In this document: piece after piece, positions 1 through 25,402 of the stretch | Layout: every line of letters begins with the position of its first letter | Position numbering within the stretch: the stretch's first letter is position 1 | Source: Candidatus Daviesbacteria bacterium RIFCSPLOWO2_02_FULL_41_8 | Lineage (GTDB): Bacteria > Patescibacteriota > Microgenomatia > Daviesbacterales > UBA10151 | Assembly (NCBI GenBank): GCA_001777455.1 | Contig: MFDZ01000058.1 | Location: forward strand, 1 to 28,332 | Direction of reading: 5' to 3' | Length of the DNA stretch: 28,332 nt | Notes under the pieces: generated by a model | Seen by the model: only the letters and a program-made list of their open reading frames with translations | Database searches by the model: none | What the model was told of the DNA's origin: nothing | Translations under genes and position numbers: made by a program

Positions 1-63
1 GCCATCAACAGATTTTTCTAAGCTCAATAGAATTAAATTTGTTAGACTTTTCTTTATTCTCAC
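1..63 (-). CDS. PaaX-like winged-helix regulator, N-terminal fragment cut by window edge
   Basis: On the minus strand a GTG at 63-61 opens a frame that runs to the window edge (21 codons). The translated stretch KKSLTNLILLSLEKSVDG lines up with RRTLTNLILLILEKSIDG near the N-terminus of the PaaX-like protein at 15559-16065, so this is very likely a paralog and a transcriptional repressor. The GTG is preferred because a TATATT -10 (76-71) ends 7 nt before it and a TTGACA -35 (100-95) lies 18 nt further up, giving a leaderless transcript. A palindrome with core ACGGCCGT sits between the two boxes, as in the other copy. The frame and similarity are seen directly; the repressor role is inferred from the family. 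The rest of the gene lies outside the window. Confidence 0.75.
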   Translation of the reverse strand, partial: MRIKKSLTNLILLSLEKSVDG

Positions 64-70
64 AAAAACA

Positions 71-100
71 AATATACGACGGCCGTCATGTTTTTGTCAA
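71..100 (-). promoter_or_regulatory. Promoter with PaaX-type operator in the spacer (operator at 74-91)
   Basis: On the minus strand TTGACA (100-95), an 18-nt spacer and TATATT (76-71) form a good sigma-70 promoter. The spacer holds an imperfect palindrome of two 9-bp half-sites (7 of 9 positions symmetrical) centred between 82 and 83 with core ACGGCCGT. Its centre is 6.5 bp from the -10, exactly as in the promoter of the paralog near 16075-16092. A repressor bound here would block the polymerase, so autoregulation or cross-regulation is inferred. Confidence 0.7.
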
Positions 101-6915: not shown

Positions 6916-7434
6916 ATGTTGTCTGTTATTAAAGCGCCTGATGCAAAGCTAAGAGTTAAAACCAAGCCGGTTAAAAAGATTAACCAGACATTAAAAGATA
7001 CCTTAAAAGAAATGGTCAAATTGACCAAAACCTTTAAGGACCCGGAAGGAGTTGGTTTGGCCGCCACTCAAGTGGGACTCTCGGAAAGCTTTTTTGTAGC
7101 CAAAAACGGGGAGGAATTTATGCCGGTAATTAACCCTAAAATTATCTCCATGGGAAAACGGACCAAGCTGTATTTTGAAGGTTGCTTGTCTGTGCCGAAT
7201 ATGTGGGGTGAGGTGAGAAGATCTACTAGTATTAAAGTGAGTTACCAGGATAATACGGGAAAAACCGTCACCATACCCTTAAAGGGGGTTTTAGCCTGGA
7301 TATTCCAACACGAAGTTGATCACCTAAATGGGGTTTTATTTTCTGACCGGGTGCTGGAACAAAAAGGCAAATTCTATAAATTCACCGGCAAAGATAAGGT
7401 GGGTACAGATGTGTACCAGGAAGTGACCCTTTAG
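6916..7434 (+). CDS. def: Peptide deformylase
   Basis: 172 residues, normal length. It removes the formyl group from the N-terminal methionine of new proteins, at the ribosome exit. All three family motifs are visible: motif 1 GVGLAATQVG (45-54; the more usual form is GVGLAAPQVG), motif 2 EGCLSVP with metal ligand C90, and motif 3 QHEVDHLNG with ligands H132 and H136 and catalytic E133. The next gene is fmt, which adds the same formyl group, so the pair forms a formylation-deformylation operon. Expression is predicted from a leaderless mRNA, with the -10 ending 6 nt before the ATG. A REP-like element lies between def and fmt. Confidence 0.96.
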   Translation: MLSVIKAPDAKLRVKTKPVKKINQTLKDTLKEMVKLTKTFKDPEGVGLAATQVGLSESFFVAKNGEEFMPVINPKIISMGKRTKLYFEGCLSVPNMWGEVRRSTSIKVSYQDNTGKTVTIPLKGVLAWIFQHEVDHLNGVLFSDRVLEQKGKFYKFTGKDKVGTDVYQEVTL

Positions 7435-7435
7435 G

Positions 7436-7502
7436 GTCATCCTGAACTTGCTTCAGGATCCATACAATAATTATATAGATTCCGGATCAAGTCCGGAATG
7501 AC
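7436..7502 (+). repeat. REP-like element between def and fmt (family A)
   Basis: Starts GTCATCC and ends CCGGAATGAC. Its inner hairpins are CCTGAACTTGCTTCAGG and TTCCGGATCAAGTCCGGAA, joined by an AT-rich linker with TATATAGA as in the copies at 3770 and 25840. Confidence 0.85.
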
Positions 7503-7511
7503 AGAACCATT

Positions 7512-15558: not shown

Positions 15559-16065
15559 CTAACGTCCGATATTATCTGATTCGAAAACCAATACCCAATC
15601 CTCTATTCCTATATTTTTAATATATTCTCTCAAGGGTCCTGTACAGTTTTTCTTGGTTACCCAAACGCTCTGCTGCCAGGGTGTAAATCCCCAAGCTTTT
15701 AAGTTGTGTCTAAATAAATCCCTGGCGCTTCTTCTTTTTTCCGGTATATCAAATATCACTATTCTCCATTTATCATCCCATTTTCCTTCTTGTGACCTTA
15801 ACTGCTCCACCACAGCTTTCATCTTACCATCGTCAGTTAAACGCCAAGCTAATTTTTGATCGTCAATAAGCTCAATTAAACCCCTTTCCCTTAACCTCTT
15901 AAGAGCCTGTGATAAAGTTCTTTTTTTAAGTTCCGGAATTCCATAATGGTATCTATAATGATGATAAGTAAAGTCTTCAAATCTGGCATAGCCGTCTATA
16001 CTTTTTTCCAGGATTAAAAGAATTAAGTTGGTCAGTGTTCTTCTTTTGGTTTGTGGAATCGCCAT
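15559..16065 (-). CDS. PaaX-like regulator with Cas2-like C-terminal domain
   Basis: 168 residues. Residues 1-75 form a winged helix (RRTLTNLILLILEKSIDG, then LKKRTLSQALKRLRERGLIE and LAWRLTDDGK). Residues about 95-165 match the PaaX C-terminal/Cas2-like ferredoxin fold (KWRIVIFDIPEKRRSARDLF, then GFTPWQQSVWVTKKN and EDWVLVFES). PaaX-type proteins are repressors; the Cas2-like part is a dimerisation fold, not evidence of CRISPR, and there is no array or other cas gene here. The ATG at 16065 is preceded by a TATAAT 6 nt away (leaderless) and by an 18-bp perfect palindrome that overlaps that -10. A paralog with the same kind of operator begins at position 63. Confidence 0.82.
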   Translation of the reverse strand: MAIPQTKRRTLTNLILLILEKSIDGYARFEDFTYHHYRYHYGIPELKKRTLSQALKRLRERGLIELIDDQKLAWRLTDDGKMKAVVEQLRSQEGKWDDKWRIVIFDIPEKRRSARDLFRHNLKAWGFTPWQQSVWVTKKNCTGPLREYIKNIGIEDWVLVFESDNIGR

Positions 16066-16071
16066 ATCACA

Positions 16072-16100
16072 ATTATATCACGGCCGTGATATGTTTGTGA
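16072..16100 (-). promoter_or_regulatory. Promoter and perfect 18-bp operator of the PaaX-like gene (palindrome 16075-16092)
   Basis: The palindrome ATATCACGG|CCGTGATAT is perfect. Its left end overlaps the TATAAT -10 (16077-16072, minus); the -35 position (16100-16095) reads TCACAA, a weak match. Geometry relative to the -10 is the same as in the operator at 74-91. Confidence 0.75.
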
Positions 16101-16148
16101 CTGATCTATTGTAAGTATGTTGGATTTCAGCTACAATTATGAATGTTT

Positions 16149-25357: not shown

Positions 25358-25402
25358 ATGGCCAAAAAGATAAGCAGAGCTTGCCTTTTTGGCCAAGAAT
25401 AA
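25358..25402 (+). CDS. Possible 14-residue leader ORF before rplK
   Basis: ATG at 25358 opens [14 protein letters not shown] then TAA. Its first 12 bases copy the beginning of rplK (ATGGCCAAAAAG), and its end (25385-25395) is the exact reverse complement of the first copy. It may be no more than a leftover of a duplication; translation is not shown. Confidence 0.3.

Follow-up and report, generated by a model that had tools for sequence, protein, structure and literature searches.

Two PaaX-like genes lie in this stretch of DNA, each preceded by a palindrome. Do they form a pair of repressors with one shared operator and a small regulon, as the original prediction had it, or do gene and palindrome belong together in some other way? 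The window (the whole stretch of 28,332 nt that was analysed) is contig C58 of a 989-kb genome in 70 contigs that is 84.7% complete. At 8 of 8 loci in a GTDB contig scan, the closest named relatives were Candidatus Daviesbacteria. The features on which the question turns are these:

1 to 63, minus strand: start of a second PaaX_M-type gene, first 21 codons with a GTG start, truncated at the contig end.
68 to 97, palindrome: 5′ palindrome of this edge copy, core ACGGCCGT; strict pattern match, 27.0 bits with the covariance model at 64-101.
71 to 100, minus strand: putative promoter of the edge copy by consensus match, TTGACA (100-95), 18-bp spacer, TATATT (76-71).
15559 to 16065, minus strand: PaaX_M-type protein of 168 aa (PF20803), N-terminal winged helix plus Cas2-like domain, by model and fold search.
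16069 to 16098, palindrome: 5′ palindrome of the full-length copy, core ACGGCCGT; strict pattern match, 31.9 bits with the covariance model at 16065-16102.
16072 to 16101, minus strand: promoter-like region of the full-length copy by consensus match, weak GTCACA (16101-16096), 18-bp spacer, TATAAT (16077-16072).

Read on the minus strand from position 63, the window edge gives GTG and then VRIKKSLTNLILLSLEKSVDG down to position 1, which is the end of contig C58. The translation resembles TLTNLILLILEKSIDG, the N-terminus of the protein encoded from 16065. A genome search with that protein returned the edge copy at C58:1-54, where 18 residues aligned with 72% identity. The E value, 0.07, is weak because just 21 codons are present; the remainder of the gene was not among the genome matches listed. 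Independent support comes from the adjoining VIT1-family gene (167-664), which is 84.8% identical to a G020 gene that itself adjoins a full-length PaaX-like copy. The predicted second PaaX-like gene is thus borne out, as is the layout upstream of both genes: each palindrome lies in the spacer between the putative -35 and -10 elements, with its centre 6 nt from the -10 hexamer, and the -10 ends 7 nt before the start codon in the edge copy and 6 nt before the ATG in the full copy. Further into the window lie two toxin-antitoxin-like modules, one of a PIN-domain protein and a small upstream ORF (702-1368), the other of an HTH_3 protein and a Gp49-type partner (1411-2078).

The full-length protein scored 77.9 bits against PF20803 PaaX_M (cut-off 24) and has an N-terminal winged helix DNA-binding domain. 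Its best fold match by Foldseek was E. coli PaaX (8a39), aligned over the first 175 of the 305 PaaX residues. The two differ in that the window protein, at 168 aa, is without the PaaX C-terminal domain, which was also not among the five Pfam families listed at E ≤0.1, and no paa genes were seen adjoining the window copy. The C-terminal domain of the window protein has a Cas2-like fold (5zyf, TM 0.62 by target), and one Asp, which we take to be the Cas2 active-site Asp, is invariant in 40/40 copies in an alignment of close copies. Unlike Cas2, the protein carries a fused winged helix, and it scored 18.6 with the Pfam Cas2 model, below the cut-off of 23.8. Y1_Tnp, which would mark an HUH/Y1 transposase as in RAYT/REP systems, was not among its Pfam matches; a PDB sequence search gave no credible match and a scan of viral contigs no relative.

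A covariance model built from 52 related sites exceeded 25 bits at only two places in the window, both of them PaaX-like promoters; the next best match, at 25358-25396, scored 18.1 bits. Across the 989-kb genome the strict two-armed pattern gave 11 sites against 1 for a reversed control pattern, so that the palindrome is, as predicted, non-random. Another pattern search found 3 places, one of which (C40:18774) lies within a gene and has one mismatch. The two window palindromes have the core and some inner bases in common and differ in their arms; the claim of a single shared operator therefore holds for the type of operator and not for its sequence. When four sites were folded as single-stranded DNA, one formed a strong hairpin, and the rest were modest or no better than shuffles.

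PaaX of E. coli shuts down its own promoter by keeping RNA polymerase from acting there, as described in PMC9493321, and the window protein, with the same winged helix and PaaX_M/Cas2-like domain, is probably an autorepressor too. It would most likely bind the promoter palindrome as a dimer and repress its own gene. The sites themselves differ, since the palindrome here is 30-40 bp long with a CGRYCG core, compared with the TGATTC(N27)GAATCA given for PaaX in PMC9493321. We consider autorepression a likely additional role of the promoter palindrome.

The genes are not two repressors, as first proposed, but members of a family. Besides the edge copy, the window genome (G000) contains four close full-length copies and one distant copy, and five of its genes exceed the PaaX_M cut-off (C58, C27, C44 and C31, close; C40, distant). 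A match to the window protein was found in 22 of the 37 relatives searched. We extracted 42 close copies from 12 genomes; within one genus, the number of close copies per genome ranged from 0 to 6 (copies, solo sites and Y1 matches were counted by hand for each genome).

The family is marked by palindromes in pairs. By script, CG-NN-CG palindromes were located to either side of the gene in 40 of the 42 close copies, a tally that includes the window copy, at which the covariance model found no credible 3′ palindrome. The close copy G005:C5:22609 has lost its 3′ site, and G011:C9:15810 has a CGGCTG core only. At 38 of the 40 pairs the core hexamer was identical at both ends (26 CGATCG, 11 CGGCCG, 1 CGGTCG), against a mean of 20.5 and a maximum of 30 in 20,000 permutations; the exceptions were the window copy, with its 3′ ‘site’ that is not credible, and G001:C43:2645. 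Identity between paired sites averaged 26.4/36 in direct and 22.9/36 in inverted orientation, compared with 16.8/36 between copies, and the direct orientation was the better one in 31 pairs, the inverted in 3, with 6 ties (n=40). The arms are alike within one copy and different between copies, so the cross-talk that had been suggested is not the default expectation. A promoter operator, moreover, gives no account of the second palindrome at the 3′ end of most close copies.

The two sites of a copy also change together. Where orthologous copies at matching loci of close relatives differ in core, both ends were altered together: one G001 copy has CGGCCG/CGGCCG where G011 and G002 have CGATCG/CGATCG, and the G002:C22 copy has a CGGCCG pair where G011 has a CGATCG pair. 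Protein similarity tracked site similarity (Mantel r 0.51 for 5′ sites and 0.43 for 3′ sites; 0/2000 permutations). At 8 of 11 distant PaaX_M loci, among which is the distant copy of the window genome, the gene also had paired flanking repeats that exceeded the maximum of 100 shuffles; the repeat sequences at these loci are unrelated. In the locus sequences compared, palindromes of distant copies had matches essentially at the copies themselves, the exception being CCGGCCGG, a short distant-copy palindrome that is common by chance.

Given sites at both ends of a discrete unit, the gene might be an autonomous transposon of its own, with the direct repeats as its ends and the gene moving as a unit. 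The patchy presence of close copies within one genus, and the occurrence of different PaaX-like lineages in different species at one locus, dnaB-pepN, are what such an element would produce. In a ranked list of copy pairs, however, the most similar copies had flanking genes in common, and the first listed pair without common flanks stood at 78.3%. Near-identical copies at different loci were absent, and no target-site duplication was seen at the dnaB-pepN and glycosidase loci or in comparisons of 61 strict sites. Because the most similar copies have common flanking genes, we reject a hot autonomous transposon as the main reading and think it very improbable; the same observation points to PaaX-like genes that are mostly vertically inherited. 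Palindrome presence or absence at the 61 strict sites did differ between species, and no empty site with exact borders was found in the same set of comparisons, in which each genome is a separate species.

At the dnaB-pepN gap of G005 (L091), all that is left of a C31-type PaaX-like gene is its 3′ end, together with the 3′ palindrome. At the glycosidase locus of G011 and G001 (L108, L110), the PaaX-like copy has next to it a gene of about 260 aa to which no function is assigned, and a decayed piece of that gene is present there in G002. In-frame stop codons were seen within two conserved genes, TatD of G007 (L205) and DnaB of G004 (L098).

Palindromes of this kind are also scattered away from the genes. 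Two strict patterns, derived from the same genomes that were searched, gave 39 + 68 = 107 sites in 16 genomes; their reversed forms gave 0 + 3. Of these 107, 74 were solo sites away from any close copy, at 0 to 12 per genome. With the covariance model, whose row counts are minimum values in some genomes and may include two rows for one site, there were matches in at least 17 of 22 family genomes and at least 1 of 15 class-level genomes (G031, at least 2 rows). Solo sites resembled a flanking site of their own genome most closely in 24 of 53 cases (permutation mean 7.9, maximum 21; 2000 permutations), and in the other 29 of 53 the nearest was a site of another genome; the pairing of gene to site family is loose.

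The genes might instead be plain autorepressors that control a small regulon: every palindrome would be an operator, those near other genes would control these genes, and the 3′ site would assist as an extra operator, through looping or as a roadblock. Solo sites would then be expected in promoters. A number of them are indeed located upstream of genes; the 5′ sites of the window copies between -35 and -10, and the autorepression of E. coli PaaX (PMC9493321), also agree with this account. We obtained contexts for 61 of the 74 solo sites and ran a position test on 59 distinct ones, having dropped two exact G014 repeats, one of them the YchF site; gene calls were plain ORFs of at least 90 aa. 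The outcome was the opposite of that for a promoter regulon, which we reject: 17 of the 59 sites lay within predicted genes, and among the 42 intergenic sites 13 stood between convergent genes and only 6 between divergent genes, where random intergenic positions gave expectations of 15% and 19%, respectively. The palindromes elsewhere in the genomes are thus not chiefly in promoters. The spacing of the paired sites, which ranges from 507 to 612 bp with no phasing evident by inspection, would also speak against the regulon account.

The sites within genes add to this. In TatD, one variable loop held an in-frame match to the model in 5 of 21 orthologues (G008, G014, G017, G011 and G012), and the palindromes in that loop belong to several different families. 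One variable loop of YchF held a model match in 2 of 20 orthologues, G014 and, weakly, G002, with CGATCG-centred palindromes visible by eye in four more (G000, G004, G012, G017). In-frame palindromes of different families, in one loop of each protein and in different species, argue against a regulon, and on balance we consider the autorepressor account unlikely. What stands of the small-regulon reading is the second paralog, the palindromes between -35 and -10, and autorepression as their natural use; the pair, the cross-talk and a promoter placement of the other sites are not supported. Matching flanking palindromes, together with scattered copies of which some lie within genes, make the genes look like partners of mobile repeats, not plain switches.

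Among the solo sites in G014, two (L162 and L163, ~2012-2050) lie in unrelated genes and have about 14 further right-side bases in common, as if copied together with some flank.

If the palindromes are mobile, the mover could be a RAYT, since Y1_Tnp matches occur in 35 of the 37 genomes; the palindromes would then be REPs whose movement is due to RAYT-like Y1 transposases in the same genome, and the PaaX-like genes would merely use or tolerate them. The YchF loop of G001, G005, G006, G013 and G020 in fact holds another palindrome type, which by eye resembles RAYT-type REPs and may, by that resemblance, belong with them. Y1 matches did not track the number of sites, however (rho 0.12, both in 16 genomes and in 22), and on this lack of correlation we reject Y1 transposases as the mover. 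G009 has 5 Y1 matches and no site; 14 of the 15 class-level genomes had no covariance model match among the rows listed, though 13 of the 15 have Y1 matches; and the flanking sites pair with PaaX-like genes. We therefore hold a Y1 mover to be improbable.

Site number did follow the number of PaaX-like genes. Close copies correlated with strict solo sites at rho 0.73 (p 0.001, 16 genomes) and at 0.76 within the genus (n=12). With covariance model rows, which include flanking sites, rho was 0.88 in 22 genomes, and it fell to 0.30 (p 0.18, 22 genomes) when four rows were subtracted per copy, which overcorrects, as many of the flanking sites go undetected by the model. A strict link is at odds with G004, where three close copies occur and solo sites are absent, and with G003, G008 and G010, which lack close copies and contain 1, 3 and 2 solo sites; in these last three genomes gene loss and incomplete MAGs may be the cause.

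The reading that we favour, with a probability of roughly 0.6, is that each of these winged-helix Cas2-fold genes has as its partner a particular family of mobile, REP-like palindromes, and that the upstream palindrome doubles as an autoregulatory operator. Both window genes would be members of a family of short PaaX-like proteins in Patescibacteria; every gene would be present once, be passed on mostly vertically and go with palindromes that are its own and have the core CG(A/G)(T/C)CG. In most copies a second, matching palindrome stands at the 3′ end of the gene in direct orientation, and others are dispersed in REP-like fashion, both between genes and, in frame, within variable gene loops. 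The pairing of sites, their concerted change, the dispersal and the correlation with gene copies are observed; we infer that the protein binds these sites, represses itself and, possibly by means of its Cas2-like domain, copies the palindromes or inserts them.

In layout and evolutionary behaviour this would work like RAYT/REP, a Cas2-fold protein taking the part of the HUH tyrosine transposase. According to published descriptions, RAYT genes occur in single copy, differ from one another within a genome and are inherited vertically (PMC3116915, PMC8049555), and they always lie between inverted REPs (PMC2817692); the likeness lies in such genes, in the flanking palindromes and in dispersed relatives that occur also within genes (PMC2817692, PMC3116915, PMC8049555, PMC3733652). 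The present system differs in its partner protein, a winged-helix Cas2-fold relative of PaaX, in flanking repeats that are direct (31/40; inverted 3) where those of RAYTs are inverted, in a 5′ palindrome within the promoter of the gene, and in having far fewer palindrome copies. Rickettsia palindromic elements, as presented in PMC10969869, are likewise short palindromic repeats in frame in genes; they differ in being about 150 bp long, and the available part of that source names no dedicated gene. Title searches of the open-access literature found no comparable system of a PaaX/Cas2-like gene and palindrome.

Whether this amounts to a new class, in which the protein recognises the palindrome, nicks or cuts by its Cas2-like domain and seeds copies in the genome, is a more tentative matter, to which we give somewhat less than even odds. 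If true, Patescibacteria would widely possess a counterpart of RAYT/REP that works by a protein other than an HUH enzyme, and the system might preserve a trace of the way in which Cas2 began to work with palindromic repeats. REP-like repeats for which no mover is known remain puzzling; the CGTC REPs, for instance, are said in PMC3733652 to lack a dedicated transposase. A Cas2-fold family with its own matching palindromes would add to the known kind of REP partner another one unrelated to it, and would do so in bacteria with genomes too small to have much room for useless DNA; the function of PaaX_M/‘Cas2-like’ genes in Patescibacteria would become directly testable.

The gap between def and fmt contains a palindrome in G001 and is a 21-bp gap without one in G014; in the window (7434-7505) it holds imperfect palindromes, GTCATCCTGAAC../..GGAATGAC, which resemble RAYT-type REPs, a matter of resemblance only.
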